Position numbers and translations under genes: made by a program. From the NCBI GenBank assembly GCA_003416985.1, contig QVIN01000005.1:591411-655410 (forward strand): 64,000 nucleotides of DNA. Reading direction: 5' to 3'. This document shows positions 11,176 through 31,383 of the stretch, one piece after another (position 1 is the stretch's first letter; each line of letters begins with the position of its first letter). Under the pieces are notes generated by a model. The model did not search any database. It was not told the origin of the DNA and was given only the letters and a program-made list of their open reading frames with translations. The stretch comes from Duganella sp. BJB480 (GTDB lineage Bacteria > Pseudomonadota > Gammaproteobacteria > Burkholderiales > Burkholderiaceae_D).

Positions 11176-11200
11176 AGCGCCGCGAATATCATTGGCCCCA

Positions 11201-11245
11201 TTGGTGATTTTCGTAATTGCTAGGCCGGCGGGTAACTTGCAGAAT
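11201..11245 (+). promoter_or_regulatory. Shared operator/promoter, copy 1 (before esterase-GH74 gene)
   Basis: TTGGTGATTTTCGTAATTGC (11201-11220) is followed by a -10 box CAGAAT (11240-11245). Read as a promoter, the -35 is TTGCTA (11217-11222) with a 17-bp spacer. The same layout occurs at 15999 and 23605. The motif overlaps the -35, the usual place for an AraC-type activator. Copies 1 and 3 also share GTAACTTGCA before the -10. Confidence 0.75.
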
Positions 11246-11279
11246 GTAGCGACAAAAAATCTCAACGAGACATTCCCCC

Positions 11280-14200
11280 ATGACCTCTACCCACTGGCGC
11301 CTGGCATTCTGCCTGGCCGCGGCATCGGCATCGGCGTCCGCCTGCGCGGCGCCGACGCACGACCTGAACGTCTATGCCGGCCGCCCGCAGCCCTCATGGC
11401 ATCTCACGCTGACCGGCCTGGACGTGAACATGAAGATGGACGGCGCCAGCGCCGCGATCCCGCCGTCGGCCGCGATCCCGGCCAGCCGCGTCAGCGCCAG
11501 CCAGGACGGCAAGGCGCTGACGCTGAACTTCAAGGATTCGTGGTACGCCGGCGTGCGCCTGGAGGGCGGCAAGCCGCTCGACCTGCGGCCGTACCTGGCG
11601 CACGGCGTGCTGGCGCTGGATGTCAAGGTCGCGGACATGGAGGAGGGCGGGCTGGGCATCGCGGTCGGCTGCGGCGACAAATGCCAGCGCAATGTGCCCT
11701 TCATGCTGCCGGCGCGCGCCATCGCCGGCAAGGGCTGGCAGCACGTGGTGCTGGCGATGAGCTGCTTCGCGCACGACGGCGACGACTTCAGCGCCGTCAC
11801 CCAGCCCTTCGTGCTCAACGCGAACGGCAGCGGCGTGGTCTCGGTGGCCAACATCCGCTACCAGGCCAGCGGCACGCCCAACACCAGCTGCCCGGATTAC
11901 CGCACCGTGTCGGTCACGCCGGACAAGTTGAACGAACCATGGTCGATCAAGTGGTGGACGCCGCGCCACGAGAAGAAGCTGGCCGAGGCGCAGGCGCTGG
12001 GCAAGTCGGCGCAGGTGGTGTTCATCGGCGACTCGATCACCGAGGGCTGGGAGAAGAGCGGCGCGCCGGTCTGGGAGCGCAACTACAAGCCGATGAACGG
12101 CCTGGCGCTGGGCTTCGGCGGCGACCGCACCGAGAACGTGCTGTGGCGCCTGCTGCACGGCGAGGTGGACGGCCTCGCGCCCAAGGTCGCGGTGCTGATG
12201 TTCGGCACCAATAACACCGGCCACCGCCACGAGGATCCGAAGCTGACCGCCGCCGGCATCCGGCGCGACATCGACGAGCTGCGCCATCGCCTGCCGGACA
12301 CCAAGATCCTGCTGCTGGCGATCTTCCCGCGCGGCGAGAAGCCGGACGACGAACTGCGCCAGCTGAACGAGCAGGTCAACGGCATCATCGCCGGCTTCGC
12401 CGACAACAAGAGCATCTACTTCCTGAACATCAACCAGGCCTTCCTGGCGCCGGACGGCACGCTGTCGAAGGACATCATGCCCGACCTGCTGCACCCGAAC
12501 GAGAAGGGCTACGAGATCTGGGCCAAGGCCATGGCGCCGACGCTCAAGCGGCTGATGGGCGGCGACGCCTACGCCTGGGACAACGTCGCCATCGGCGGCA
12601 GCGGCTATGTGTCCGGCATCGTCACCAGCAAGGCCGAGAAGGGCCTGGTCTACGTGCGCACCGACGTCGGCGGCGCCTACCGCTGGGACGGCGCCGCACA
12701 GCGCTGGATACCGTTGCTCGACTGGGTGTCCGACAAGGACACCGGCTTGCTCGGCGTGGAGTCGATCGCCATCGATCCGGGCGCGCCGTCCAGGGTGTAC
12801 CTGTCCACCGGCATCGCCTATTTGAACGGCGGCGCCAGCGCGATCCTGAAATCCAGCGACTACGGCAAGACCTTCACCAGGATCGACGTGACCGGCCAGT
12901 TCAAGGTCCACGGCAACGGCCTGGGCCGCGGCACCGGCGAGCGGCTGCAGGTGGACCCGGCCAACGGCAAGATCCTCTACATCGGCACGCGCGCCGACGG
13001 CATGTTCAAGAGCGCGGACGAAGGCCTGAACTGGCAGCACCTGGACGGCCTGCCGGTGGCGGCCACGCCCAACCGCAACGGCGTGGGCTTCGTGCTGCTG
13101 GACCCGGCCAGCGCGGCCGGCGGCGCCACGCAGAGGATCTTCGCCGGCGTGTCGCGCTACGGCTCGGTGGGCGCGAATATGTACATGTCCAACGACGGCG
13201 GCAAGACCTTCGCGCCGATGAACGGCGGCCCGACCGCCTTGATCCCGCAGCGCGCGGTGCTGGCCAAGGGCAGCCTGGTGGTGGTCTACGCCAATGGCGT
13301 CGGCCCACACGGCGACAAGCACGGCGAGGACATGGACCAGGGCCAGGTGTGGAAGTACGATATCGCCACCGCCAAGTGGAGCAATATCTCGCCGCCGCTG
13401 AACCGCGCCTACGCCGGCATCACGGTCGATCCGGGCAACGAGGATCGCATGATCGTCTCCACCACCAACTACTACCGCAAGCCCGGCACGATGGGCGACC
13501 AGTTCTTTGAAACGCTGGACGGCGGCAAGAGCTGGAAGAGCGTGGTCGACCAGGGCGTGCGTATCGACCCGAACGGCGTGAGCTGGATCGCGGGCAGCTT
13601 CATGCATTGGGCCACCAGCATCGAGTTCGATCCCTTCGACACGCGCACGGTGATGGTCGTCTCCGGCAACGGCATCTTCAAGACGAACGACATCCACGCC
13701 ACGCCGGCGGTCTGGAAATTCGAGGACAAGGGCCTGGAGGAATCGGTGCCGCTGGATATGATCAGCATTCCCGGCGGCCCGGCCATTTCCGCCATCGGCG
13801 ACTACGACGGCTTCCGCCACACCGACGTCACCCAGTACGCACCCATCCACACGCCGACCATGGGCACCACCTGGGGGCTGGACTACGCGGCCGCCAATCC
13901 CAATGTGGTGGCGCGCGTCGGCAGCGCGATGTACGTGTCGCGCGACATGGGCGTGAGCTGGAAGAAGACCGCCAGCCTGCAGGGCAAGCAGGGCCGCCTG
14001 GCGCTGAGCGCGGACGGCAAGGTGATCGTGCACAGCCCGGAAAAATCCGCCACCAGCTACTATTCGGCCGACGGCGGCGACAGCTGGCGCGTGGCCCAGG
14101 GCCTGAACGGCGCGCGGCCGGTGGCCGACCCGGTCAATCCCCGCAAGTTCTACGCGCTGAGCGGCGCCGCGCTGCTGGTCAGCACCGACGCCGGCGCCAG

Positions 14201-14624
14201 CTTCGCGCCGGCCGGCCGCCTGTCCGGCGCCAAGGGCTCGCCGGCAGTGCGCGCCGCGCCGGACCGGGAAGGCGACGTCTGGGTGGCGCTGTACGACGGC
14301 GGCCTGGCCCGTTCCACCGATTCCGGCGCCACGTTCGCCAACCTGGCCAATGTGGGCTACGCGGCGGCGGTCGGCTTCGGCAAGGCGGCGCCGGGCGCCA
14401 GCTACCCAACGGTGTACATCTGGGGCTCTGTGGGCGGCGTGCGCGGCCTGTTCCGCTCCACCGACAGCGGCGCCAGCTGGTTGCGTATTAATGACGATAA
14501 TCATCAATATGGCGGCCCGGGCGATGCGCAATTTGTTATCGGAGATGCAAACACCTACGGCGTGGTGTACATGAGCACGGCGGGTCGGGGCATCGTGACT
14601 GGCAAGCCGATTGTCGCCAATTAG
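11280..14624 (+). CDS. Secreted SGNH esterase - GH74 xyloglucanase fusion
   Basis: The protein has 1114 residues with an N-terminal signal (to about 24). Residues about 35-215 resemble the galactose-binding-like domain found at the C terminus of ExoP-type GH3 enzymes (LTLNFKDSWYAGV). Residues about 240-425 are an SGNH/GDSL hydrolase: GDSIT with S252, GFGGD (278-282), GTNN (309-312) and D402-H405 in DLLHP. From about 430 a GH74 beta-propeller follows, with the signature VRTDVGGAYRWD (D462, first catalytic Asp) and IGDYDGF (D841, probable second). GH74 enzymes cut the xyloglucan backbone; the SGNH part may remove acetyl groups. It opens the xyloglucan locus behind shared-motif copy 1. Confidence 0.9.
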   Translation: MTSTHWRLAFCLAAASASASACAAPTHDLNVYAGRPQPSWHLTLTGLDVNMKMDGASAAIPPSAAIPASRVSASQDGKALTLNFKDSWYAGVRLEGGKPLDLRPYLAHGVLALDVKVADMEEGGLGIAVGCGDKCQRNVPFMLPARAIAGKGWQHVVLAMSCFAHDGDDFSAVTQPFVLNANGSGVVSVANIRYQASGTPNTSCPDYRTVSVTPDKLNEPWSIKWWTPRHEKKLAEAQALGKSAQVVFIGDSITEGWEKSGAPVWERNYKPMNGLALGFGGDRTENVLWRLLHGEVDGLAPKVAVLMFGTNNTGHRHEDPKLTAAGIRRDIDELRHRLPDTKILLLAIFPRGEKPDDELRQLNEQVNGIIAGFADNKSIYFLNINQAFLAPDGTLSKDIMPDLLHPNEKGYEIWAKAMAPTLKRLMGGDAYAWDNVAIGGSGYVSGIVTSKAEKGLVYVRTDVGGAYRWDGAAQRWIPLLDWVSDKDTGLLGVESIAIDPGAPSRVYLSTGIAYLNGGASAILKSSDYGKTFTRIDVTGQFKVHGNGLGRGTGERLQVDPANGKILYIGTRADGMFKSADEGLNWQHLDGLPVAATPNRNGVGFVLLDPASAAGGATQRIFAGVSRYGSVGANMYMSNDGGKTFAPMNGGPTALIPQRAVLAKGSLVVVYANGVGPHGDKHGEDMDQGQVWKYDIATAKWSNISPPLNRAYAGITVDPGNEDRMIVSTTNYYRKPGTMGDQFFETLDGGKSWKSVVDQGVRIDPNGVSWIAGSFMHWATSIEFDPFDTRTVMVVSGNGIFKTNDIHATPAVWKFEDKGLEESVPLDMISIPGGPAISAIGDYDGFRHTDVTQYAPIHTPTMGTTWGLDYAAANPNVVARVGSAMYVSRDMGVSWKKTASLQGKQGRLALSADGKVIVHSPEKSATSYYSADGGDSWRVAQGLNGARPVADPVNPRKFYALSGAALLVSTDAGASFAPAGRLSGAKGSPAVRAAPDREGDVWVALYDGGLARSTDSGATFANLANVGYAAAVGFGKAAPGASYPTVYIWGSVGGVRGLFRSTDSGASWLRINDDNHQYGGPGDAQFVIGDANTYGVVYMSTAGRGIVTGKPIVAN

Positions 14625-14735
14625 GGACGTGATCGCCTTTTTCATCGGTACATGATCGGAAACATGCCACAATACCCGGTACATCCTGCAGAGGGTGTAT
14701 CGAGACGTGCTGTACCGAGATTGAGGTCGTTGAAA

Positions 14736-15968
14736 ATGTCGATGAAGTCCCACCGTATTGCGTTGCTGTTCAACGCCAATAAAATTTTTGACCGCGAGGT
14801 TATTTCCGGCGTGGCCGCTCACCTGAGCAGCACCCGCGCCTCCTGGGATCTGTTCCTGGAAGAAGACTTCCGCCTGCGCCTGCCCGGCATCGAACACTGG
14901 CAGGGCGACGGCATCATCGCCGATTTCGACGATCCCGCCGTGGCCGCCGCGCTCAGCCGCAGCCGCATCCCGGTGGTGGCGGTGGGCGGCTCCTACGCCG
15001 ACGAGAGCAACTACCCGGATTCCATTCCCTACGTCGCCACCGACAATTTCAAGCTGATCAAGCTGGCCCACGACCACCTGATCGAGGCCGGCCTGCGCAA
15101 TTTCGCGATGTTCAGCCTGCCGGAGGCGCAGGAAAACCGCTGGGCGCAGGAGCGCGAGACCGCCTTCCGCACGCTGATGCGCAAGGATAAGATGGAGCCG
15201 CACATCTACCGCGGCCTGGGCACCAGCGCGCCGTCGTGGGACGAGGCGGTGGAGCAGCAGATCAAGTGGCTGCACAGTCTGCCCAAGCCGGTCGGCATCA
15301 TCGCCGTCACCGACGCCCGCGCGCGCCAGCTGCTGCAGGCCTGCATCATGGCCGGCATCGAGGTGCCGGAGCAGGTGGCGCTGATCGGCATCGACAACGA
15401 TCCGCTGGCGCGCATGCTCACCCGCATTCCGCTCAGCTCCGTGATGCAGGGCGCGCAGGAGATGGGCCGCACCGCCGCCCACCTGCTGGACCAGATGCTG
15501 CACGGCGTGCGCCTGGGCGGCACGCGCATCCTGGTGCCGCCGGTCGGCATCAACGTGCTGACCTCGACCCGCCACGAGGCGCCCAAGCATCCGCACGTGA
15601 TGCGGGCGCGCCATTTCATCCGCCAGTACGCCTGCCAGGGCATCAAGACCCACCAGGTGGCCGAGTATGTCGGCATCTCGCGCTCGTCGCTGGAGTCCTA
15701 CTTCCGCCAGGAGCTCGATTGCAGCGTGCATGACGTGATCCTGCGCTTCAAGCTGGACGCCGCCACCGAGATCCTCGCGCGCGGGGAGCGCAGCATCGCC
15801 GACGTGGCGCTCAGCTGCGGCTTCACGTCGGTGCAGTACATGCACGCGGTGTTCAAGCGGGAACTGGGCTGCACGCCGCGCGCCTACCAGGACCGCGCCA
15901 TGCAGGGCCGCGCCGGCGAAGCCGATGGCGACGGCGCCGCCGTGGCGGATTTGCGCAGCGTGGCCTGA
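14736..15968 (+). CDS. xylR: Xylose-responsive regulator XylR (LacI-type sensor, AraC-type DNA-binding)
   Basis: The protein has 410 residues. The start at 14736 is supported by GAGG nine bases upstream and by the match of MSMKSHRIALLFNANK to the start of E. coli XylR. Residues to about 280 form a periplasmic-binding-protein-like sugar sensor (GIIAVTDARARQLL, ALIGIDNDPLA). Residues about 300-400 carry two AraC helix-turn-helix units, the second with IADVALSCGFTSVQYMHAVFK. XylR binds D-xylose and activates xylose genes. It lies between the GH74 gene and xylXB; no copy of the shared motif precedes it, so it may be expressed with the GH74 gene or from a weak promoter. Confidence 0.93.
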   Translation: MSMKSHRIALLFNANKIFDREVISGVAAHLSSTRASWDLFLEEDFRLRLPGIEHWQGDGIIADFDDPAVAAALSRSRIPVVAVGGSYADESNYPDSIPYVATDNFKLIKLAHDHLIEAGLRNFAMFSLPEAQENRWAQERETAFRTLMRKDKMEPHIYRGLGTSAPSWDEAVEQQIKWLHSLPKPVGIIAVTDARARQLLQACIMAGIEVPEQVALIGIDNDPLARMLTRIPLSSVMQGAQEMGRTAAHLLDQMLHGVRLGGTRILVPPVGINVLTSTRHEAPKHPHVMRARHFIRQYACQGIKTHQVAEYVGISRSSLESYFRQELDCSVHDVILRFKLDAATEILARGERSIADVALSCGFTSVQYMHAVFKRELGCTPRAYQDRAMQGRAGEADGDGAAVADLRSVA

Positions 15969-15998
15969 GCGAGGGCGAGGCGTAAAACATGACCGGGA

Positions 15999-16043
15999 TT
16001 GGTGAGTTTCATAATTGCCGTCATGGGTGAATCGGGTCAAAAT
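15999..16043 (+). promoter_or_regulatory. Shared operator/promoter, copy 2 (before xylXB operon)
   Basis: TTGGTGAGTTTCATAATTGC (15999-16018) is followed by CAAAAT (16038-16043). The -35 is TTGCCG (16015-16020) with a 17-bp spacer, as in the other two copies. Outside the motif and -10 box the sequence differs from the others, so the match is not a simple duplication. Confidence 0.75.
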
Positions 16044-16094
16044 CCTCCACGCAGTTTGCTTGCCAGCCTGGAGAGAGAGACCTTGGAAAATAAT

Positions 16095-18038
16095 ATGAGT
16101 ACGATGCTGCCCGACGATGTCGAACGGGCAGTCCTGGTGGGCCGTGTGTGGCGCGATGGCGTCATCAACGGACCTTGCGTGGTCGCCGTGCGCAACGGCG
16201 AGGTGTTTGATATCACCGGCCACGCGCCCACCATGTCCGATCTTCTGGAGCGCGACGACGCCCTTGAGGTGGCGCGCTCCGCCCCCGGCGAGCCGCTGGG
16301 CAGCGTGCGGCAGCTGATGGCCCACGCCCTCGACGCCAAGGCCGCCGTCGGCGCGCCGCGCCTGCTGGCGCCGTGCGACCTGCAGGCGATCAAGGCCTGC
16401 GGCGTGACCTTCGCCGTCAGCCTGCTGGAACGCGTGATCGAAGAACAGGCTGGTGGCGACGCCTCCCGCGCCAGCGCGCTGCGCTCCGAAATCCAGTCCA
16501 TCATCGGCTCCGACCTGTCGGCCATCCGTCCCGGCTCGCCCGAGGCGGCGCGCCTGAAGGCGGACCTGATCGAGCGTGGCCTGTGGTCGCCGTACATGGA
16601 AGTGGGCATCGGCCCGGACGCCGAGGTGTTCTCCAAGTCGCAACCCATGTCGGCGGTGGGGCAGGGCGCGGACGTCGGCCTGCACCCGGATTCGAAATGG
16701 AACAATCCCGAGCCGGAGATCGTCCTGGCGGTCAACAGCCAGGCGCGCGTGCTGGGCGCCACGCTGGGCAACGATGTCAACCTGCGCGACATCGAAGGCC
16801 GCAGTGCCCTCCTGCTGGGCAAGGCCAAGGACAACAACGGCTCCTGCGCCATCGGCCCGTTCATCCGCCTGTTCGACGAACACTTCACCATCGACACCAT
16901 CCGCAACGCGGAAGTGAGCATGCTGATCGAAGGCGAGGACGACAACTTCCACCTGGCCGGCGCCAGCCGCATGCGCGAGATCAGCCGCGATCCGCTGGAC
17001 CTGGTGAGCCAGGTCTGCGGCCGCCATCACCAATACCCGGACGGCTTCATGCTCTTCCTCGGCACGATGTTCTCGCCGATCAAGGACCGCGACACCGCCG
17101 GCGGCGGTTTCACGCACCATCTGGGCGACCGTGTCAGCATCTCGACGCCGTCGCTGGGCAAGCTGGTGAACCATGTGCAGCGCAGCGACGCCATCGCGCC
17201 GTGGACCTTCGGCGTGCGCGCCTTGCTGGGCCGCGCGCGCGGCGCCAGCGCGGTGCGCGCGGCGCCGGCGGTGCAGGCCAGGATGCAGCATGCGACCTAC
17301 CCTAGCCTGGCCGGCAAGCGCGTGGTGGTCACGGGCGGCGGCAGCGGCATCGGCGCGGGCATGGTGGAGGCGTTCGCGCAGCAGGGCGCGCAGGTGCACT
17401 TCCTCGACGTGGCGGAGAAGGATTCGCTGGCGCTGCAAAGCCGCCTCGCCACGCTGGCGACTCCGCCGGTGTTCATGCGCTGCGACCTGACCGATCTCGA
17501 GGCGCTGGAAGCGGCTTTCAAGGGCATCGGCGAGGTCGATATCCTGATCAACAACGCGGCCAACGACGACCGCCACAAGCTGGCCGACGTCACCCCCGAA
17601 TACTGGGAGCAGCGCATGGCCGTCAACCTGCGCCACCAGTACTTCTGCGCCCAGGCCGTGGCCGAGGGCATGCGGCAGCGCGGCGGCGGCGTGATCCTGA
17701 ACTTCGGTTCGATCTCGTGGCACCTGGCTTTGCCGGAACTGACCCTGTACATGACGGCGAAGGCCGCCATCGAGGGCATGACGCGCGGCCTGGCGCGCGA
17801 CCTCGGTCCGCACAACGTCCGCGTCAACTGCATCATCCCGGGTGCGGTGCGTACGCCGCGCCAGGAAGCCCTGTGGCATACGCCGGAAGAGGAAGCGCGC
17901 ATCCTGGCGGGCCAATGCCTGCCGCAGCGAGTGCAGGTGGACGACGTGGCCGCGCTGGCGCTGTTCCTGGCCTCCGACAACGCAGGCCGCTGCACCGGCC
18001 GCGATTACTTCGTCGATGCGGGATGGTACGGCGCATGA
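16095..18038 (+). CDS. xylXB: Fused 2-keto-3-deoxy-xylonate dehydratase / D-xylose dehydrogenase (XylX-XylB)
   Basis: The protein has 647 residues. Residues 1 to about 385 closely resemble Caulobacter XylX, a fumarylacetoacetate-hydrolase-fold dehydratase (WNNPEPEIVL at 202-211, GNDVNLRDIEGRSALLLGKA, HHQYPDGFMLFLGTMF). Residues about 400-647 resemble Caulobacter XylB, a short-chain dehydrogenase: TGGGSGIG (413-420), NNAAN, GSISWH (538-543) and Y552-x3-K556. In Caulobacter these are separate genes. One uninterrupted frame joins them by a linker of about 20 residues. An internal ATG at 17283 has no good ribosome site. A TTG at 16083 behind GGAGAGAGAG is an alternative start. It makes the first and a later step of the Weimberg pathway. 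Confidence 0.9.
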   Translation: MSTMLPDDVERAVLVGRVWRDGVINGPCVVAVRNGEVFDITGHAPTMSDLLERDDALEVARSAPGEPLGSVRQLMAHALDAKAAVGAPRLLAPCDLQAIKACGVTFAVSLLERVIEEQAGGDASRASALRSEIQSIIGSDLSAIRPGSPEAARLKADLIERGLWSPYMEVGIGPDAEVFSKSQPMSAVGQGADVGLHPDSKWNNPEPEIVLAVNSQARVLGATLGNDVNLRDIEGRSALLLGKAKDNNGSCAIGPFIRLFDEHFTIDTIRNAEVSMLIEGEDDNFHLAGASRMREISRDPLDLVSQVCGRHHQYPDGFMLFLGTMFSPIKDRDTAGGGFTHHLGDRVSISTPSLGKLVNHVQRSDAIAPWTFGVRALLGRARGASAVRAAPAVQARMQHATYPSLAGKRVVVTGGGSGIGAGMVEAFAQQGAQVHFLDVAEKDSLALQSRLATLATPPVFMRCDLTDLEALEAAFKGIGEVDILINNAANDDRHKLADVTPEYWEQRMAVNLRHQYFCAQAVAEGMRQRGGGVILNFGSISWHLALPELTLYMTAKAAIEGMTRGLARDLGPHNVRVNCIIPGAVRTPRQEALWHTPEEEARILAGQCLPQRVQVDDVAALALFLASDNAGRCTGRDYFVDAGWYGA

Positions 18039-19807
18039 GTACCCAACGCCGCTTCCGCTCGCAGGACTGGTTCGACAATCCGGACCACATCGACATGACG
18101 GCGCTGTACCTCGAGCGCTTCATGAACTACGGGATCACGCCGGAGGAGCTGCGCTCCGGGCGCCCCATCATCGGCATCGCGCAGAGCGGCAGCGACATCA
18201 GTCCCTGCAACCGCATCCACCTGGAGCTGGCCAAGCGCGTGCGCGATGGCATCCGCGATGCGGGCGGCATCGCGATGGAGTTCCCGCTGCATCCGATCTT
18301 CGAGAACTGCCGGCGTCCGACCGCCGCCATCGACCGCAACCTGGCCTATCTGGGTTTGGTGGAGATCCTGCACGGCTATCCGATCGACGCGGTGGTGCTG
18401 ACCACCGGCTGTGACAAGACCACGCCATCGCAGCTGATGGCTGCGGCGACGGTCGACATTCCCGCCATCGTGCTTTCTGGCGGGCCGATGCTGGACGGCT
18501 GGTTCGAGGGCGAACTGGCGGGTTCCGGCGCGGCGATCTGGAAGGGCCGGCGCCAGCTGGCCGCCGGCGAGATCGACAACGAAAAATTCCTGCAGATCGC
18601 GGCCGCCTCGGCGCCGTCGGCGGGACACTGCAACACCATGGGCACCGCCTCCACCATGAACGCGATGGCCGAGGCGCTGGGCATGTCGCTGACCGGCTGC
18701 TCGGCGATCCCCGCGCCCTACCGCGAACGCGGCCAGATGGCGTATGAAACCGGCAAGCGCATCGTCGAGATGGCGCGGCTGGACATCAAGCCTTCCAGCA
18801 TTCTGAATCGCGAAGCCTTCCTGGACGCGATCGTCGTCAACGCGGCGATCGGCGGCTCCACCAACGCGCAGCCGCACATCATGGCGATGGCGCGCCACGC
18901 CGGCGTCGAGCTGCATTCGAGCGACTGGATGGAGTACGGCCACGCAGTGCCGCTGCTGCTGAACATGCAGCCGGCCGGTAAGTTCCTCGGCGAGCGCTTC
19001 CACCGCGCCGGCGGCGTGCCGGCCATCATGTGGGAGCTGGAGCAGAAGGGCATGCTGCGCTCGGACCGTCCGACCGTCACCGGCCGCACCATGCGCGACA
19101 ACCTGGCCGGGCGCGAGACGCACGACCGCGAGGTGATCTACCCGTTCGACCAGCCGCTGAAAAAGGATGCCGGTTTCTTCGTCCTGAAGGGCAACCTGTT
19201 CGACTTCGCCATCATGAAAACCAGCGTGATCTCGGACGCCTTCCGCGCCCGCTATCTGAGCACGCCGGGCAGCGAGAACATCTTCGAATGCCGCGCCATC
19301 GTGTTCGACGGCTCCGACGACTACCACGCCCGCATCAACGATCCGTCGTTGAACATCGACGAGGACTGCATGCTGGTGATACGCGGCGCGGGCCCGGTGG
19401 GTTGGCCCGGTTCGGCCGAGGTGGTGAACATGCAGCCGCCCGATGCATTGGTCAAGCGCGGCATCAACGCGCTGCCGACGCTGGGCGACGGCCGCCAGTC
19501 CGGCACCTCGGACAGCCCGTCGATACTGAACGCGTCGCCGGAGAGCGCGGTCGGCGGCGGCCTCGCATGGCTGCGCACGGGCGACCGTATCCGCGTGGAC
19601 CTGAACGCCGGCCGTTGCGATGTGCAGGTGGGCGAGGCGGAATGGGAAGAGCGCAAGAAGGACGGCCTTCCGCCCATCCCGGCCAGCCAGACGCCGTGGC
19701 AGGAGATTTACCGCAGCACCGTTGGACAGATGGAAAACGGCGCCTGCATGGAACTGGCTGTACCATACCGGGGAGTGGTTAACAACCAGGCACGTCACAA
19801 TCACTAA
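18035..19807 (+). CDS. xylD: D-xylonate dehydratase (IlvD/Edd family)
   Basis: The protein has 590 residues and is very like Caulobacter XylD throughout (RFRSQDWFDNPDHIDMTAL at the start, PRHNH-like end). Iron-sulfur cluster cysteines are C58 (ISPCNR), C126 (TTGCDKT) and C199 (GHCNTMG). It dehydrates D-xylonate to 2-keto-3-deoxy-D-xylonate, the step between the two activities of the fused upstream enzyme. Its ATG overlaps the xylXB stop (ATGA), giving translational coupling. Confidence 0.94.
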   Translation: MSTQRRFRSQDWFDNPDHIDMTALYLERFMNYGITPEELRSGRPIIGIAQSGSDISPCNRIHLELAKRVRDGIRDAGGIAMEFPLHPIFENCRRPTAAIDRNLAYLGLVEILHGYPIDAVVLTTGCDKTTPSQLMAAATVDIPAIVLSGGPMLDGWFEGELAGSGAAIWKGRRQLAAGEIDNEKFLQIAAASAPSAGHCNTMGTASTMNAMAEALGMSLTGCSAIPAPYRERGQMAYETGKRIVEMARLDIKPSSILNREAFLDAIVVNAAIGGSTNAQPHIMAMARHAGVELHSSDWMEYGHAVPLLLNMQPAGKFLGERFHRAGGVPAIMWELEQKGMLRSDRPTVTGRTMRDNLAGRETHDREVIYPFDQPLKKDAGFFVLKGNLFDFAIMKTSVISDAFRARYLSTPGSENIFECRAIVFDGSDDYHARINDPSLNIDEDCMLVIRGAGPVGWPGSAEVVNMQPPDALVKRGINALPTLGDGRQSGTSDSPSILNASPESAVGGGLAWLRTGDRIRVDLNAGRCDVQVGEAEWEERKKDGLPPIPASQTPWQEIYRSTVGQMENGACMELAVPYRGVVNNQARHNH

Positions 19808-19846
19808 TCGGCCGGGCATGGACCCGTGCGATAACAGGAGACGACA

Positions 19847-20851
19847 ATGAAGAAATTACTGAACGCCGCGGCAGTCGCCGTCATGCTGGTTTGCGCCGGC
19901 GGGAACGCCATGGCCGACGCCAAGAATCCGAAGATCGGTTTTTCGATCGACGATCTGCGGCTGGAGCGCTGGGCGCGCGATAGGGATTACTTCGTTGCGG
20001 CGGCCGAGCAGCAGGGTGCCAAGGTCTTCGTGCAGTCGGCCGACGCCAGCGAGCAGCGGCAGATCGCGCAGATCGAGAACCTGATTTCGCGTGGCGTCGA
20101 TGTGCTGGTGATCGTCCCGTATAACGCCACGGTGCTCAACAACGCCGTGCGCGAGGCCAAGAAGGCCAAGATCAAGGTGGTTTCCTACGACCGCCTGATC
20201 CTCAACGCCGATATCGACGCCTACATCTCCTTCGATAACAAGATGGTCGGCGAGATGCAGGCGCAGGGTGTGGTGGCCGTCAAGCCGAAGGGGAATTACT
20301 ACCTGCTGGGCGGCGCGCCGACCGACAACAACGCCAAGATGCTGCGCGAGGGCCAGCTGAAGGTGCTGCAGCCGCTGATCGACAAGGGCGACATCAAGGT
20401 GGTGGGCAAGCAGTGGGTCAAGGACTGGAATCCGGCCGAGGCCATGTCCATCGTCGAGAATGCGCTGACCGCCAACGCCAACAAGCTCGATGCGGTGGTC
20501 GCGTCGAACGACGCCACCGCCGGCGGCGCGATCCAGGCGTTGGCTTCGCAGAAGCTCGATGGCAAGGTGGCCGTGTCTGGGCAGGACGCGGACCTGGCGG
20601 CGGTGCGCCGTGTGATCGCCGGCTCGCAGACCATGACAGTCTACAAGCCGTTGAAGGTGATCGCCACCGAGGCGGCCAAGCTGTCGATCCAGCTGGTGCG
20701 CAACGAGAAGCCGGCCTTCAACGGCGAGTACCAGAACGGCTTCAAGCAGGTCCCGACGCTGCTGCTGAAACCGACCATGCTGACCAAGGCGAATGTCGAC
20801 CTGGTGGTGACGGACGGCTTCTACACCAAGGCTCAATTGGCTGCCAAGTAA
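19847..20851 (+). CDS. xylF: D-xylose ABC transporter, periplasmic binding protein
   Basis: The protein has 334 residues with a signal peptide ending near AMADA (about residue 24). It matches E. coli XylF along its length: GFSIDDLRLERWARDRDYF, DVLVIVPYN, YISFDNKMVGE, GAPTDNNAKM, VASNDATAGGAIQAL and SGQDADLAAVRR. It captures D-xylose and delivers it to XylGH. AGGAG precedes the start. It follows xylD by 39 bp and is probably in the same operon. Confidence 0.95.
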   Translation: MKKLLNAAAVAVMLVCAGGNAMADAKNPKIGFSIDDLRLERWARDRDYFVAAAEQQGAKVFVQSADASEQRQIAQIENLISRGVDVLVIVPYNATVLNNAVREAKKAKIKVVSYDRLILNADIDAYISFDNKMVGEMQAQGVVAVKPKGNYYLLGGAPTDNNAKMLREGQLKVLQPLIDKGDIKVVGKQWVKDWNPAEAMSIVENALTANANKLDAVVASNDATAGGAIQALASQKLDGKVAVSGQDADLAAVRRVIAGSQTMTVYKPLKVIATEAAKLSIQLVRNEKPAFNGEYQNGFKQVPTLLLKPTMLTKANVDLVVTDGFYTKAQLAAK

Positions 20852-20866
20852 GCGGCGGGATCCCGC

Positions 20867-22390
20867 ATGTCCGCCTATCTGCTGGAAATGAAGGGCATCG
20901 TCAAGAAATTTGGCGGTGTGCCCGCGCTCGACGGCATCGACTTGCAGGTCCGGCCCGGCGAGTGCATCGGCTTGTGCGGCGAGAACGGCGCCGGCAAGTC
21001 CACTTTGATGAAAGTGCTGTCCGCCGTCTACCCGCACGGCACCTGGGACGGCGAGATCCTGATGGACGGCCAGCCGCTGCGCGCGCAGTCGATACGCGAG
21101 AGCGAGGCGGCAGGCATCGTCATCATCCACCAGGAGCTGATGCTGGTGCCGGAATTGTCGGTGACGGAAAATCTCTTCCTTGGCAACGAGATCACGCTGC
21201 CCGGCGGCCGCATGGATTATCCGGCCATGAACCGCCGTGCGGAGACGCTGCTCAAGGAGCTGAAGCTCAACGACGTCAACGTGGTGCTGCCGGTGATGAA
21301 CTACGGCGGCGGCCATCAGCAACTGATCGAAATCGCCAAGGCGCTGAACAAGAACGCGCGCCTGCTGATCCTGGACGAGCCGTCGTCGTCGCTGACGGCG
21401 TCGGAAATCGAGGTGCTGCTTGAGATCATACGCGGCCTGAAGGCCAAGGGCGTGGCCTGCGTCTACATCTCGCACAAGCTCGATGAGGTGGAGGCAATCT
21501 GCGACACCATCGTCGTCATCCGCGACGGCAAGCATATCGCCACCACGCCGATGCGGCAGATGGATGTGCGCCAGATCATTTCGCAGATGGTGGGGCGCGA
21601 GATGAACCAGCTGTATCCCAAGCTGGAACGCACGCAGGGTGAGGTGATCTTCGAAGCCCGCAACGTGGTCTGCTACGACACCGAAAAGCCGGACCGCAGG
21701 AAGGTGGACAACGTCTCCTTCACGCTGCGGCGCGGCGAGATCCTCGGCATCGCGGGGCTGGTGGGCGCCGGGCGCACGGAGCTGGTGTCGGCGCTGTTCG
21801 GCGCCTACAACGGCCGCAGCGAGGCCGAGGTGTGGCTCAACGGCGAGAAGATCGATACCCGCACGCCGCTCAAGGCGATCCGCGCGGGGCTGGCGCTGGT
21901 GCCGGAGGACCGCAAGCAGCACGGCATCATCCGCGACCTGGACGTGGGCCAGAACATCACGCTGGCGGTGCTGGGCCGCTATGCGCGCTTCACCCGCATC
22001 GACCGCGAGGCCGAGCTGAAAACCGTCAGCGAGGAGATCGCGCGCCTGGGCCTGAAGACGGCCAGCCCCTTCCTGCCGATTACTTCGCTCTCCGGCGGAA
22101 ACCAGCAGAAGGCGGTGCTGTCCAAGATGCTGCTGACGCGGCCCAAGGTGCTGATCCTCGACGAACCCACGCGCGGCGTGGACGTCGGCGCCAAGTACGA
22201 GATCTACAAGCTGATGCTGGAACTGGCCAGCCAGGGCGTGTCCATCATCATGGTGTCGTCGGAGCTGGCCGAGGTGCTGGGCGTGTCCGACCGCGTGCTG
22301 GTGATGGGCGAAGGCCAACTGCGCGGAGACTTCATCAACCGGGACCTGACCCAGGAAATGCTGCTGTCGGCGGCGCTCGACCACTCATGA
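20867..22390 (+). CDS. xylG: D-xylose ABC transporter, ATP-binding protein
   Basis: The protein has 507 residues with two fused ABC ATPase domains, as usual for sugar importers of the CUT2 type. The first has Walker [10 protein letters not shown] (38-46), a signature loop [15 protein letters not shown] typical of XylG, and [12 protein letters not shown]. The second has GLVGAGRTE and [14 protein letters not shown] with [11 protein letters not shown]. It powers xylose uptake through XylH. There is a 15-bp gap after xylF, and an ATGA overlap with xylH. Confidence 0.95.
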
Positions 22391-23541
22391 TGCATCCTAT
22401 GCCAACCACCAAACTAAAACAGCTCTTCACCCAATACAAAATCCTCGCGCTGCTGATCGCCATCGCCATCATCTGGAGCTTCTTCAGCTGGAAGACTGAG
22501 GGCGGCTTCATCTCGGCGCGCAACCTGTCCAACCTGATGCGGCAGATGTCGGTGACCGGCGTGGTGGCCTGCGGCATGGCCTTCGTCATCATCTCCGGCG
22601 AGATCGACCTCTCGGTCGGCTCGCTGCTTGGCCTGTTGGGCGGCGTGGCTGCGGTGCTCGACGTGAACCGCCACATGCCGCTGCCCGTGACGGTGGCGGC
22701 GGTGCTGGCCTGCGGCCTGGCGCTTGGCCTGGTCAACGGCTACCTGACGGCCTACAAAGGCATCCCGTCCTTCATCGTGGGCCTGGGCGGGATGCTGGCG
22801 TATCGCGGCATCGTGCTGGGCGTGACGGACGGCGTGACGGTGGCTCCCGTGTCGGAGGCGATGGTGCAGGTGGGGCAGGGCTATCTGTCGCCGGAGCTGG
22901 GTGTGACGCTGGGCGTGGCGCTGTTCGCGCTGGCCGCCGTGCTGACCTGGCGCCAGCGCCTGAACCTGGGCCGCCACGGTCTGCCGGTGCCGCCGATGTG
23001 GCGCGACGGCGTGCGCCTGGCCGCCATCGGCGCGGTGCTATTCGCTTTCGTGCGGACCCTGAACAGCTACGAGGGCATACCGCTGCCGGTGCTGCTGTTG
23101 CTGGTGCTGCTGGGCGCCTTCAGCTACGTCGCCACGCAGACCGTGTTCGGCCGCCGCATCTACGCGGTGGGCAGCAATATGGAGGCGACCCGCCTGTCCG
23201 GCGTGAACGTGCAGGCGGTGAAGCTGTGGATCTTCGGGATCATGGGCCTGATGTGCGCCCTGGCGGGCCTGGTCAACACGGCGCGGCTGGCTGCGGGGTC
23301 GCCGTCGGCCGGCACCTCCGGCGAGCTCGATGCCATCGCGGCCTGCTTCATCGGCGGCACGTCGATGCGCGGCGGTTCCGGCACAGTCTACGGCGCCTTG
23401 ATCGGCGCGCTGGTGATGGCCAGCCTGGATAACGGCATGTCCATGCTGGACGTGGACACCTACTGGCAGATGATCGTCAAGGGCTGCATTCTGACGCTGG
23501 CCGTGTGGGTCGACGTGGCGACGCGCTCAAGCCGCCGCTGA
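22387..23541 (+). CDS. xylH: D-xylose ABC transporter, permease
   Basis: The protein has 384 residues with about ten hydrophobic segments. It starts at the ATG overlapping the xylG stop; a second ATG follows directly. Permease signatures of the RbsC/XylH family are present: [54 protein letters not shown] and [22 protein letters not shown]. It forms the membrane channel for xylose with XylF and XylG. Confidence 0.95.
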
Positions 23542-23554
23542 TGTCGTTTTTTGT

Positions 23555-23580
23555 GCACGGTCCGCCGCGCCGGGCCGTGC
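23555..23580 (+). terminator. Hairpin after xylH
   Basis: GCACGGTCC pairs with GGGCCGTGC (one G-T wobble) around an 8-base GC-rich loop, starting 13 bases past the xylH stop. No T tract follows, so terminator function is uncertain. Placed before the next promoter, it would separate the two operons. Confidence 0.4.
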
Positions 23581-23604
23581 GCTTGCTCATTATCATTCCA
23601 CGCC

Positions 23605-23649
23605 TTGGTGAATTTCGCAATTGCGGCCCGCTGTCGTAACTTGCAAAAT
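23605..23649 (+). promoter_or_regulatory. Shared operator/promoter, copy 3 (before TonB receptor-glycosidase operon)
   Basis: TTGGTGAATTTCGCAATTGC (23605-23624) is followed by CAAAAT (23644-23649). The -35 is TTGCGG (23621-23626) with a 17-bp spacer. It drives the receptor and the four glycosidase genes, if the reading is right. Confidence 0.75.
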
Positions 23650-23866
23650 GGTTTCATAAGTCGTATGACCTGGCACCCCGCCAGCAAGTCATCACGAAAA
23701 AAAAACCAAGAGCGAGACACTATCAATGAATCTCAAAATTCCGCGCTGCCCAGCGCCTGCGGGCCCGTTCGCCTGACGATTTCCCAAACCAACACTACAA
23801 CACTAAAACACAAATAGTAAATGGCCAAAGAGCCGTGAATTATTCGCACAACCCTGGAGAGTGTAA

Positions 23867-26821
23867 ATGAAACAGTTCAAAAAAACGGCGATCGCGCTGG
23901 GCCTGGCCCAGATGGCGTCCATGGCGATGGCGCAGACAGCTCCCGCCACCGATACCGGTGCGACCGTGATCGTGACCGGCCAGCGCGCAGCGCTGCAGTC
24001 GGCGCAGAAGATTAAACAGAATGCCGATGAAATCGTCGATTCCATCGTCGCCGACGATATCGGCAAGCTGCCGGACCGCTCGGTGACGGAGGTGTTGCAG
24101 CGCATCGTGGGCGTGACCATCGACCGCACCATGGCCAAGGGCGACCCGGAGCACTTTTCGGTTGAAGGTTCGGGCGTGTCGATCCGCGGCTTGAGCTATG
24201 TGCGCTCCGAGCTTAATGGCCGCGATTCGTTCTCCGCCAACGGCGGCCGTTCGCTGAACTTCGAAGACGTGCCGCCAGAGCTGATGGCCGGCGTCGACAT
24301 CTACAAGAACCCGTCGGCCGAGCAGGTCGAAGGCGCCATCGGCGGCCTGGTGAACCTGCGCACCGCGATGCCGTTCGATTACAAGGGCTTCAAGGCCGCC
24401 GTCTCGGCCGACCGCACCTGGTCGGAACTGAAGAAGGGCAAGACCTCGCCATCGTATTCGGGCCTGGTGTCCAACCGCTGGAAAACCCCTGTCGGCGAAG
24501 TCGGCGCCTTGCTGGACCTGGCGTACTCGGAAAGCGCAACCCGCACCGACGCCTTCCAGGTCGAGCCTTACTATCCGATGAAAGACGCCAACGGCAATCC
24601 GGTCTTCGCACCGAAGGGCGCGCAATGGCGCACATTGCAATTCGACCGCAAGCGCGAAGGCGCATACGGCGCGCTGCAATGGAAGAAGGACGACTGGTCC
24701 AGCTCCCTGACCATGTTCAAATCGAAGTATGAGATGAAGTGGGACGAGCAGGCGATCTTCGCTCAATCGAGCCCGTACAACATCCGCCTGTCCCCGGATT
24801 CGACCTTCAACTCGCGCGGCGCGCTGCTGACCGGCACCCTGACAGATTCCACCGGCGCCGGCATCAACTTCGGCGACGACACCCGCGCCGCCAGCCGCAA
24901 GTCCGACACCACCGACCTGTCGTGGAACCTGCGCTGGCGTCACGACAGCTGGACCGTCACCACCGATCTGCAGCACATCAAGGCCAAGACCAACAGCTTC
25001 GATTCGACCGTGGCGACCGGCGTCCAGATGCCGAAGGAGCAGCTTGACCTGACCGGCAGCGTACCGAAGCTGATCTTCAGCGACGCGGACCGCGCCTACC
25101 TGGCGAATCCGAACAACTACTACTGGGCGTTCACGATGGAACACCTGGACCGCGCCAAGGCCGATGAAACCGCGTGGAAGACGGACGTCAAGTACGACTT
25201 CGATCATCCGGTGCTGCGCGACGTGCGCTTCGGCGTGCGCCTGACGGACCGCTCGGCGACGACGACGAAATCCAACCCGGACTACAATTGGGCCGCCATC
25301 ACCCAGCCATGGCAGGGCGAGATTTCGCACCTGGCCTACCTGGGCGATCCTCGCTTCGCCGGCAATACCAACCTGCATAGCTTCAATAACTTCTTCAACG
25401 GCGGCGTGTCCGTGCCGTCGGTGGTGTTCCCGAACGCCTCGCTGGCGCAGGGCTACCCAGATTCCTACGCCCAGCTGCACACCTATCACGACATCCTGTG
25501 CGCGGAAAAAGGCAATACCTGCTCGCCATGGACGCCGGCCAGTTTCGGCACCAATCCTATCGGCACCAACGACCAGACGGAAAAGACCAAGGCGCTGTAC
25601 GGCCAGTTGCGCTTCGGCTGGGATAACCTGAAATATCCGGTGGACGGCAACGTCGGCCTGCGTTATGTGCAAACCGATTCGACCGCGCACGGCTACACGG
25701 TATTCAGCTCGACCGCGCCGACCGGCGCCACGCAGGGCGTGCCGGTTCCGATCATCGCGCCGTTCGCCAAGGCGCAGGACTTCGACAACAGCTACCACAA
25801 CTTCCTGCCTAGCCTGAACCTGCGCCTGAAGGCCTCGGACACGCTGCAGTTCCGCTTTGCCGCCGCCGCTGCATTGTCGCGACCTGATTTCGACAAGCTG
25901 CAGGCCTACACCACGCTGTCGCAGACCGCCGATTCGACGACCAAGAACGGCGTCACCACCATCAACACCTTGACCCAGGACGGCACCGGGTCGGGCAATC
26001 CCAACCTGCGTCCGACCACCTCCAAGCAGCTCGACCTGACGATGGAATGGTACTTCGCGCCTACCGGCTCGTTCACTGCGGCGGTGTTCAACAAGCAGCT
26101 GAAAGACATCGTCGTCAACCAGGTGTACAACTATCAGTTGACCGACGTGAACGGCAAGCCGCAGAACTTCAACGTGACTGGCCCGATCAACGGCGCCAGG
26201 GGCCATGCGCGCGGTATAGAGCTGGCCTTCCAGCAGTACTTCGACAAGCTGCCTGGCGTATGGTCGGGGTTCGGCATGCAAGCCAACTTCACTTTCGTCG
26301 ACAGCAAGCGCGAACTGTATAACCCTGTGTTCTCGAAATACTGCACCGGCGGCGACAACGCCGGCAACGTCAACCTGAACCTGAACGGCTGCGACACCAA
26401 CGGCACCACCTTCGGCAATCTGCCGCTGGAGAACCTGTCGCGCCAGTCGTACAATCTGGCGCTGCTGTATGACAAAGGCCCAGTGTCGGGACGCCTGGCC
26501 TACAATTGGCGCTCCAAGTCGCTGCAGGGCGTGAACGTCAACGGCACCAAGGGCGGCGACGCCACGGACAGCAATCCGGCCAGCCCGGGCTTCGGCCAGA
26601 CCAATGTGGCATGGGCGCTGCCTACCTGGGCGGATTCGTACGGCCAGCTGGATGCGTCGGTGTTCTATAAATTCAGCGACAAGGTGCAACTCGGCCTGGA
26701 AGCGCAGAATCTGACCGATTCGACGTTCAAGCAGCTGATGCAGCAAAATATCGGGATGATGGGGCGCGCATGGTTCAAGACCGGCCGCCGCGTGGTCGCG
26801 AAACTGAGCTACGACTTCTAA
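23867..26821 (+). CDS. TonB-dependent receptor (probable xylogluco-oligosaccharide transporter)
   Basis: The protein has 984 residues with a signal peptide ending near MAMAQ. A plug domain follows (TVIVTGQRAALQSAQKIKQ, DDIGKLPDRSVTEVLQRIVGV, GVSIRGLSYVRSELNGRD), then a 22-strand-type barrel ending in an aromatic residue (KLSYDF). The plug features match the Xanthomonas/Caulobacter carbohydrate-uptake class. It would pull oligosaccharides across the outer membrane using TonB energy. It heads a tight operon with GH35, GH31, GH95 and GH2 genes, as in the Cellvibrio japonicus xyloglucan locus, which supports the substrate. GGAGAG precedes the start. Confidence 0.92.
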   Translation: MKQFKKTAIALGLAQMASMAMAQTAPATDTGATVIVTGQRAALQSAQKIKQNADEIVDSIVADDIGKLPDRSVTEVLQRIVGVTIDRTMAKGDPEHFSVEGSGVSIRGLSYVRSELNGRDSFSANGGRSLNFEDVPPELMAGVDIYKNPSAEQVEGAIGGLVNLRTAMPFDYKGFKAAVSADRTWSELKKGKTSPSYSGLVSNRWKTPVGEVGALLDLAYSESATRTDAFQVEPYYPMKDANGNPVFAPKGAQWRTLQFDRKREGAYGALQWKKDDWSSSLTMFKSKYEMKWDEQAIFAQSSPYNIRLSPDSTFNSRGALLTGTLTDSTGAGINFGDDTRAASRKSDTTDLSWNLRWRHDSWTVTTDLQHIKAKTNSFDSTVATGVQMPKEQLDLTGSVPKLIFSDADRAYLANPNNYYWAFTMEHLDRAKADETAWKTDVKYDFDHPVLRDVRFGVRLTDRSATTTKSNPDYNWAAITQPWQGEISHLAYLGDPRFAGNTNLHSFNNFFNGGVSVPSVVFPNASLAQGYPDSYAQLHTYHDILCAEKGNTCSPWTPASFGTNPIGTNDQTEKTKALYGQLRFGWDNLKYPVDGNVGLRYVQTDSTAHGYTVFSSTAPTGATQGVPVPIIAPFAKAQDFDNSYHNFLPSLNLRLKASDTLQFRFAAAAALSRPDFDKLQAYTTLSQTADSTTKNGVTTINTLTQDGTGSGNPNLRPTTSKQLDLTMEWYFAPTGSFTAAVFNKQLKDIVVNQVYNYQLTDVNGKPQNFNVTGPINGARGHARGIELAFQQYFDKLPGVWSGFGMQANFTFVDSKRELYNPVFSKYCTGGDNAGNVNLNLNGCDTNGTTFGNLPLENLSRQSYNLALLYDKGPVSGRLAYNWRSKSLQGVNVNGTKGGDATDSNPASPGFGQTNVAWALPTWADSYGQLDASVFYKFSDKVQLGLEAQNLTDSTFKQLMQQNIGMMGRAWFKTGRRVVAKLSYDF

Positions 26822-26842: not shown

Positions 26843-28489
26843 ATGAAGCATACCGCCCGCCAGTTTGTCTCCGTTTTGACTTTCGCGGCCCTGGCCGCAA
26901 CTGGCGCGGCGGCTGCCGATCTGCCGCAGCTTGTGAAGAAGGACGGCCGCCACGCCCTGATGGTCGATGGCGCGCCGTTTGTGATGTTCGGCGCACAGGT
27001 GCACAACTCCAGCAATTATCCGCTGGCGTTGAACAAGGTGTGGCCGGCCATCAAAGACATGAACGCCAACACCGTCGAGATTCCCGTGGCATGGGAGCAG
27101 ATCGAGCCGGTCGAAGGCAAATTCGATTTCAGTTACGTCGACACCTTGCTGGCGCAGGCGCGCGAGCACAAGGTGCGCCTGGTGCTGCTGTGGTTCGGCA
27201 CCTGGAAAAACACCGGCCCGCAGTACACACCGGAGTGGGTCAAGTTTAATAACAAGCGTTTCCCGCGCATGGTCGACAAGGACGGTAAGACCATCTACTG
27301 CCTGTCGCCGAACAGCGAGGAAACGATGAAGGCCGACAGGAAGGCGTTTGTCGCGCTGATGGAACACATCAAGAAAGCCGATTCGGCGCAGCGCACCGTC
27401 ATCATGATGCAGGTCGAGAACGAGGTAGGCACCTACGGCTTTGTGCGCGACTTCGCGCCGAAGGCGCAGGCGGCGTTTGAGCAGAACGTGCCGCAGGCCG
27501 TGCTGGATCATAAAAAATCTCCGGTGGCGCTGGCGGCCAGCGGCACCTGGAAGCAGGTCTACGGCGATTACGCCGACGAGTACTTCCACGCTTATTCCAT
27601 CGCCAGCTACATCGAGGAAATCGCCAAGGCGGGCCGCGCGGTCTACAACCTGCCGATGTACGTGAACAACGCGCTGCGCGATCCGCTGGAGTCGCCGGTG
27701 ATGCCGTGGAAGGGCAACTTCTCGAGCGGCGGGCCGACCTTCGACGTGATCGATATCTACAAGGCCGCCGCGCCGCATATCGACCTGGCCGCGCCGGATG
27801 TCTACGCTCCGGAGTCGGACAAATTCCACGCCACGCTGGACCGCTTCCAACGGCCGGACAACGCGCTGATGGTCCCGGAGATGAGCAACGCCTCGCAGTA
27901 TGTGCGCTATGCCTACCTGGTGCTGGGCCGCGGTTCGCTGGCGTTCTCGCCGTTCGGTATCGACTACGCGGACTACAGCAACTTCCCGCTCGGTTCCAAG
28001 GCGACCGACAAGACCATGGTGGCGCCGTTCGGAAAAATCTACGCCGCCTTCCGGCCGATGGAACGCCAGTGGGCCAAGTGGGCGTTTGAGGGCCGCACCT
28101 ACGGCGTGGCCGAGGGCGACGACCGCAAGCCGCAAACCGTCGCGATGAAGAACTGGAAGGCCACCGTCAGCTTCCGCATGTGGCAGTTCGGCGACGCCGA
28201 CTGGCTGGCCAAGATCAAGGACCTGCCGGCGGATACCGAGCAGCCCAACGGCGGCGCGTCGATCGCGCAGATCGGCGACAATGAATTCATCGTGGTGGGC
28301 CAGCATGCGCGCGTGAGCTTCGACAGCGCGGATGGCAAGCCGTCCATGCTGGCGCGCGTGGAAGAGGGACATTTCGACCCTTCCGGCAAATGGATCATGG
28401 AGCGCAACTGGAACGGCGACCAGACAGATTACGGCTTGAACCTGACCGGCAATCCGGTGGTCCTCAAGGTCAAGCTGGGTACCTATTAA
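26843..28489 (+). CDS. GH35 beta-galactosidase (Bgl35A-like)
   Basis: The protein has 548 residues and a signal peptide (to about residue 25). The GH35 barrel covers about 28-360 and is followed by a C-terminal domain of the DUF5597 type. The acid/base is E194 in QVENE (190-194) and the nucleophile E346 in VPEMSN. The closest known type is the Cellvibrio xyloglucan beta-galactosidase Bgl35A, which removes galactose capping xylose side chains. It probably works in the periplasm on imported oligosaccharides. It lies 21 bp after the receptor gene. Confidence 0.92.
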
Positions 28490-31382: not shown

Positions 31383-31383
31383 G

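Follow-up and report, generated by a model that had tools for sequence, protein, structure and literature searches.

A 64-kb stretch of DNA from Duganella sp. BJB480 (contig QVIN01000005.1, positions 591,411 to 655,410; hereafter the window) carries genes for the breakdown of xyloglucan and the use of xylose, preceded at three places by a 20-bp motif, TTGGTGANTTTCNNAATTGC. All of these genes lie on the (+) strand. The first encodes a GDSL esterase fused to a glycoside hydrolase family 74 (GH74) endo-xyloglucanase (11280..14624), identified with Pfam, whose residues 431-1107 match solved GH74 xyloglucanases. It is followed after 27 bp by xylR (14652..15968), encoding a LacI/PBP-like sensor with an AraC DNA-binding domain, the proposed binder of the motif. 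The xylose genes come next: a FAH-family domain fused to D-xylose 1-dehydrogenase (16095..18038), an IlvD/EDD-type dehydratase (18038..19807, the extent of the homology) that is probably a D-xylonate dehydratase, judging its substrate from the context, xylF for the xylose-binding protein (19847..20851; TIGR02634 over cut-off), xylG for the transporter ATPase (20867..22390; TIGR02633 over cut-off), and an xylH-like sugar permease with a BPD_transp_2 domain (22390..23541, its start approximate within the longer frame 21832-23541). A TonB-dependent receptor (23867..26821) then heads a row of glycosidases: GH35 beta-galactosidase (26843..28489), GH31 alpha-xylosidase (28506..31382; best solved relatives the alpha-xylosidases 2xvg, 7kmp and 5jou), GH95 alpha-fucosidase (31318..33729) and, last in line and assumed to belong to the same transcript, a GH2 glycosidase (33531..36497). 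With GH74, GH31, GH35, GH95, an esterase and a TonB transporter clustered with xylose genes, the region has the composition of a xyloglucan utilization locus.

The motif occurs at 11201, 15999 and 23605, always on the (+) strand and without mismatch; no other match is found in the window at up to 3 mismatches, and 100 dinucleotide shuffles of the window gave a mean of 0.05 matches versus the 3 real ones. A first-pass annotation of this DNA had placed the three copies correctly and counted 16 of 20 positions as invariant; the number is 17, with positions 8, 13 and 14 variable. It had also named the genes downstream, a secreted xyloglucanase (11280), a xylose catabolism/uptake operon (16095) and a receptor-glycosidase operon (23867), which agrees with our assignments. 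As it further proposed, TTGCNN within the motif can be read as a -35 box, separated by exactly 17 bp from CAGAAT at site 1 and CAAAAT at sites 2 and 3. All three promoters fall short of a 9-of-12 match to the sigma-70 consensus, and a consensus promoter scan lists none of them; such weak -35 and -10 boxes fit dependence on an activator. An Rfam search of positions 11000-24500 gave no match.

The sequence around the three copies had been described as different, which holds in part: an AT-rich element (AATATCATT, TAAAACATG and ATTATCATT) stands at -16 to -8 before each copy, at a common distance. Each site is composite. Site 1 (11185..11245, +), upstream of GDSL-GH74 and xylR, consists of a distal half-site at 11185-11193, the motif at 11201-11220 over the -35 (TTGCTA) and the -10-like CAGAAT at 11240-11245. 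Site 2 (15983..16043, +), before the xylose catabolism/uptake operon, has these parts at 15983-15991, 15999-16018 and 16038-16043 (CAAAAT), and site 3 (23589..23649, +), before the TonB receptor/glycosidase operon, at 23589-23597, 23605-23624 and 23644-23649 (CAAAAT).

The same architecture was seen in an alignment of 13 sites from the genome of the strain (the 12 genome matches with at most 2 mismatches plus C31:19420), in which a second conserved block appears at -16 to -8. Among offsets of at least 20 bp, which allow comparison of all 20 columns, self-similarity of the aligned sites was best at 22 bp; offsets 12 and 13 gave sums similar to the 22-bp value, but from fewer columns. The 20-mer is one half of a larger site, with an ATCATT-like half-site 22 bp upstream as a direct repeat, and the elements follow one another as distal half, 20-mer (covering a weak -35), a 19-bp gap and the -10. 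At +19, the box is exactly CANAAT in 9 of the 13 promoters and one letter off in 2 (GACAAT, CACCAT); at 434097 it is displaced by one base, and at 410045 it reads AATGAT. A matrix of the distal half-site built from these sites was applied out of sample to the sites of other genomes described below (160, one of the 161 lying at a locus end). It scored above 3 bits in 156 of the 160, compared with 3.1 at control offsets, and in 95 of 98 sites of a non-redundant set, compared with 2.2. In the same foreign sites, CA.AAT peaks at +19 only. Direct-repeat half-sites set against the -35 of xylose genes, as expected of an operator for an Escherichia coli-type XylR, were found here by computation.

For the comparison of loci, we took the best 80 of 421 named XylR loci found. 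A matrix of the motif matched at 78 of them, with 227 matches in total versus 5 in reversed sequence, and a stricter threshold left 161 sites in 75 loci. The first gene after each site was assigned by similarity: the xylose operon in 38 cases, GH74 in 29, a TonB receptor in 22, GH3 in 11, xylR in 10, GH42 and an AraC-type gene in 8 each, XylF and xylA in 3 each, and others in 10. The remaining 19 were left without assignment; five of these, inspected individually, precede aldose epimerase (2), GH115 (2) and GH97 (1) genes. In the Janthinobacterium group, all 14 sites found (13 Janthinobacterium loci and Rugamonas apoptosis) precede the xylose operon, and one locus of this group, L151, has no site. 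Collimonas loci carry a site upstream of the xylA that adjoins xylR, with the 20-mer kept and the downstream box changed to TAGTAT. In Undibacterium, sites also stand before GH3 and GH115 genes.

A genome scan with the motif, which the first-pass annotation had called for, extended the set well beyond the window. The 7.27-Mb genome contains 19 matches with at most 3 mismatches and 12 with at most 2 (reversed pattern, 3); a 45-bp pattern that includes the -10 gave 15 matches versus 0 for its reverse and added C21:453712. We accepted 14 sites at 13 promoters, 10 of them outside the window, and 8 of these 10 lie in a second hemicellulose locus (C21) with its own XylR paralogue. There, sites precede an esterase, GH31 and symporter (C21:410045), GH3 (C21:421611), GH29 and then a TonB receptor (C21:426365), a GDSL-esterase (C21:429279), a 385-aa AraC-type gene followed by the second XylR (C21:434023), GH42 (C21:434097), GH5 followed by a TonB receptor, GH35 and an arabinofuranosidase (C21:453712), and one further GH29 gene with a tandem pair (C21:465221 and C21:465271). 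The other two promoters lie before GH43 (C34:443802) and before an acetylesterase and GH27 (C31:19420). The two copies of the tandem pair (L023:5221-5290) are 50 bp apart, with a -10 at +19 for the nearer copy only; together they possibly form an operator of four half-sites.

Eight matches were not counted, namely six of the seven 3-mismatch matches (C2:95586, C11:73649, C11:258858, C31:72026, C32:367570 and C32:477133) and two matches to the 45-bp pattern (C32:41913 and C32:296579). The last two were judged from sequence and reading frames, and genes were annotated behind C32:367570 only. C32:367570 (L027:7570-7589) has an altered motif end, AATGCT, an upstream ATTTCGGT that resembles the distal half-site, and two PEP-CTERM adhesin-like genes behind it; its membership in the regulon is doubtful. 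C32:296579 (L212:4579-4623) reads TTGACCTGTTTAACAATAGC-N19-CAAAAT with 3 mismatches and is almost unchanged in three named relatives; it is a conserved promoter that we kept outside the regulon count. Viral contigs gave no match to an extended exact pattern.

The product of xylR shares 46% identity with E. coli XylR over 386 residues, the full length, and its best solved relatives are 4fe7 and 4fe4. Because this homology begins at residue 29, the true start of xylR may lie downstream of 14652. The second XylR (L021:11179-12381) is 69% identical to the first, and both have PF22177 (PBP1_XylR N-terminal), PF13377 (PBP-like) and PF12833 (AraC helix-turn-helix) over cut-off. The genome has these two PF22177 genes, one per hemicellulose locus; among 369 genomes drawn from the class, it alone was positive for PF22177. 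Judged by XylR, Rugamonas sp. A1-17 is the closest named relative (98%).

In a set of 148 related genomes, our own included, 57 have XylR and 53 carry the motif with no more than 1 mismatch. The motif was found in 51 of the 57 genomes with XylR versus 2 of the 91 without; within the genus, the counts were 50 of 55 versus 0 of 19. The reversed pattern matched once across all 148 genomes. Four Janthinobacterium genomes and Rugamonas apoptosis each have a single full site, which lies upstream of the xylose operon. XylR had been suggested earlier as the binder, and four lines now support it as the candidate: co-occurrence, footprinting of the loci, these single xylose-operon sites together with the Collimonas sites before xylA, and the tandem repeat at the -35. 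Composite site, fixed spacing, target genes and co-occurrence with XylR are established by computation; the motif is very probably the docking site of XylR.

We propose, with considerable confidence, that XylR is an AraC/PBP activator that binds the tandem operator at the -35 and, with xylose, would activate both xylose catabolism and xyloglucan degradation. The motif would be the promoter-proximal half of the operator, overlapping a poor -35 (TTGCNN) 17 bp from a -10-like CANAAT, and the ATCATT-like direct repeat 22 bp away would be the distal half. Activators of the AraC family recruit RNA polymerase from tandem direct half-sites, of which the nearer abuts or overlaps the -35. A xylose-bound XylR dimer would likewise fill both halves, contact RNA polymerase and activate these intrinsically weak promoters: those of the xylose catabolic/uptake operon, of GH74-xylR, of the receptor/GH35/GH31/GH95 operon and about 10 more elsewhere, mostly for hemicellulose. 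By homology to E. coli XylR, and because the GH31 alpha-xylosidase would free xylose from xyloglucan oligosaccharides, xylose is the putative ligand. Xylose so released would induce its own utilization as well as continued degradation of xyloglucan, so that one simple sugar probably switches on the whole degradation programme. Since xylR lies behind GH74 or, elsewhere, behind a site of its own (10 of the 161), positive feedback on xylR is likely. That a xylose regulator has taken over a polysaccharide locus, as suggested before, describes the link to the regulator well and its scope too narrowly, with some 13 promoters and two XylR paralogues in place of one locus and one regulator.

Other explanations fare less well. 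XylR might bind and chiefly repress, with xylose relieving the block: a protein on the proximal half-site would cover part of the -35 and could obstruct polymerase. However, tandem half-sites abutting the -35 are the usual layout of activators in the AraC family, and the -35 and -10 boxes are poor. The E. coli protein is an activator with xylose, according to the part of PMC5766520 available, and we consider repression improbable. Slightly less probable still is that a different regulator binds the motif, such as the 385-aa AraC-type protein beside the second XylR; it belongs to the second cluster, stands itself behind a site (C21:434023), and its relatives follow motif sites in other genera too (8 of the 161). 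Yet 11 of 17 named genomes lack it (E up to 1e-25), 8 of them with good sites, leaving it in 6 of the 17, whereas XylR is present in all 17; as a general binder it was rejected on this distribution. The first 300 residues of this protein (L021:12602-13759) have no Pfam match, and it lies behind an XylR-type site here and at several Massilia-group loci; it is possibly a second tier of regulation.

Two conserved boxes at fixed spacing might also mark promoters of an alternative sigma factor. This is very improbable: conservation reaches a direct repeat 22 bp further upstream, one gene has a tandem pair of sites 50 bp apart, the Collimonas box becomes TAGTAT while the 20-mer stays, and presence of the motif tracks XylR. 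Finally, the three promoters could be recent copies of each other in which the motif is under no selection, and sites 1 and 3 do have GTAACTTGCA(G/A)AATG in common at the -10. Site 2 differs there, and 98 non-redundant sites less than 62% identical over 180 bp have nevertheless kept motif, distal half-site and spacing. Given that alignment, we regard recent copying as refuted on present evidence and next to inconceivable.

Several observations weigh against XylR as the binder. Two of the 80 XylR loci have no matrix match, the Collimonas genome G524 has no match to the 45-bp pattern, and two genomes without XylR carry one site each. Six of the 57 genomes with XylR lack a site at 1 mismatch, five of them within the genus; four of these five have a 2-mismatch site about 2.3 kb or less from xylR, and the remaining two of the six are G044 and G087. 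Fisher values for the co-occurrence ignore relatedness and so overstate independence. In the E. coli xylA-xylF region, similarity is weak: the 20-mer matrix gave P 0.05, with its best matches in the 9.5-kb locus outside that intergenic region, and a two-block model, chosen afterwards, gave P 0.03.

If XylR is the activator, its regulon differs greatly in size among relatives. In 17 named genomes, the 45-bp pattern was searched for with as many as 3 mismatches allowed, which makes the larger counts upper bounds. Matches numbered 20, 16, 12, 4, 4, 18, 17 and 10 in the eight genomes that clearly have GH74, and one each, with 0 mismatches, in five without it (four Janthinobacterium and Rugamonas apoptosis). 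Undibacterium, where the GH74 query matched in the esterase part only, had five; two Collimonas had 0 and 2 and Herbaspirillum 1, all weak, and the Collimonas with 2 carries a GH74 at 35% identity. Across all 17 genomes, 4 matches were obtained with the reversed pattern. In a tree of XylR from 48 of the 80 loci, the two proteins of our strain and E. coli, whose root depends on the very long E. coli branch, the Duganella/Massilia-group proteins fall together in a single 35-row clade (100/98), separate from Janthinobacterium/Collimonas. Our two XylRs fall into sister clades (99/97 and 100/100), the second on a long branch. Sites at second-clade loci are looser at positions 1, 5 and 12; the paralogues may therefore be partially specialized. 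We suggest tentatively, and with rather less assurance than for the binding of XylR itself, that in the Duganella/Massilia group a monosaccharide sensor with at least two paralogues reading a near-identical, rigid tandem operator may be the master activator of whole hemicellulose programmes, taking the role of oligosaccharide sensors. Its sites would number as many as about 20 in a genome, and its regulon would range from a single promoter in Janthinobacterium to at least a dozen in GH74-bearing relatives. If true, these genomes form a natural series in which to follow the growth (or shrinkage) of a regulon.

Some genes behind the sites have features of their own. In Duganella radicis, the GDSL esterase and GH74 are two adjacent separate frames, compared with the fusion at 11280-14624. 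In many named loci, relatives of the FAH/dehydrogenase fusion at 68-98% lie behind a motif site; should the FAH part be a keto-acid dehydratase, the fusion would unite two oxidative xylose steps in one chain. The leader of the receptor operon (23650-23866, about 210 nt) is conserved in Duganella relatives, with a hairpin CTGGCACCCCGCCAG, an GAGCGAGAC block, a mini-open reading frame at 23727-23777 (MNLKIPRCPAPAGPFA) and predicted stems. In 18 of 23 loci a mini-frame starts at about the same position, and most of these frames end in AP(A/S/V)x; 8 of 28 stem pairs show two-sided changes in at least one sequence. The leader could be regulatory.

The system would offer an exactly defined and testable operator for an AraC-type sugar regulator beyond the enterics, and would tie the extracellular attack on polysaccharides, in common bacteria of soil and roots, to one intracellular sugar signal. 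Copies of the rigid site, numbering from one to at least a dozen, are countable across dozens of related genomes, which makes a clean case for a regulator gaining or losing promoters and for paralogues sharing them.

In the partial literature collection used, no AraC-type XylR regulon for xyloglucan in this bacterial family was found among the matches listed, and the available part of a Burkholderia sacchari xylose paper (PMC5952831) yielded no passage on XylR sites. The name itself is used variously: in the portions at hand, XylR is a LacI-type protein in a review on the regulation of hemicellulases (PMC10766802), and in PMC8147214 'XylR' is an unrelated Duganella GH10 xylanase. The closest gene content is that of the xyloglucan locus (XyGUL) of Xanthomonas, which, in the sections of PMC8245568 available, likewise has GH74, GH31, GH35, GH95, esterase and TonB transporters beside xylose-use genes and is co-induced with these by xyloglucan oligosaccharides. 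It uses xylose isomerase and xylulokinase, whereas our locus has the oxidative route (dehydrogenase, dehydratase), and the xylan/xylose XylR of Xanthomonas oryzae is LacI-type (a reference within those sections), whereas ours is AraC-type. XygS/XygR of Ruminiclostridium cellulolyticum, known here from a reference title in PMC10766802, is also a dedicated positive control of xyloglucan degradation, as a two-component system in contrast to the intracellular xylose sensor proposed here. The proposed regulation resembles that by E. coli XylR (xylAB / xylFGHR), in domain architecture, in the 46% identity and in xylose transport and catabolism as targets. As described in the available parts of PMC5766520 and PMC8534289, the E. 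coli protein activates with xylose and CRP (PMC5766520), has two sites at the xylA promoter (PMC8534289) and serves xylose genes; here, secreted and periplasmic polysaccharide enzymes and receptors are added, and the promoters number about 13, with XylR present as two paralogues. Systems of this kind are known; the content and the scale of this regulon look new.

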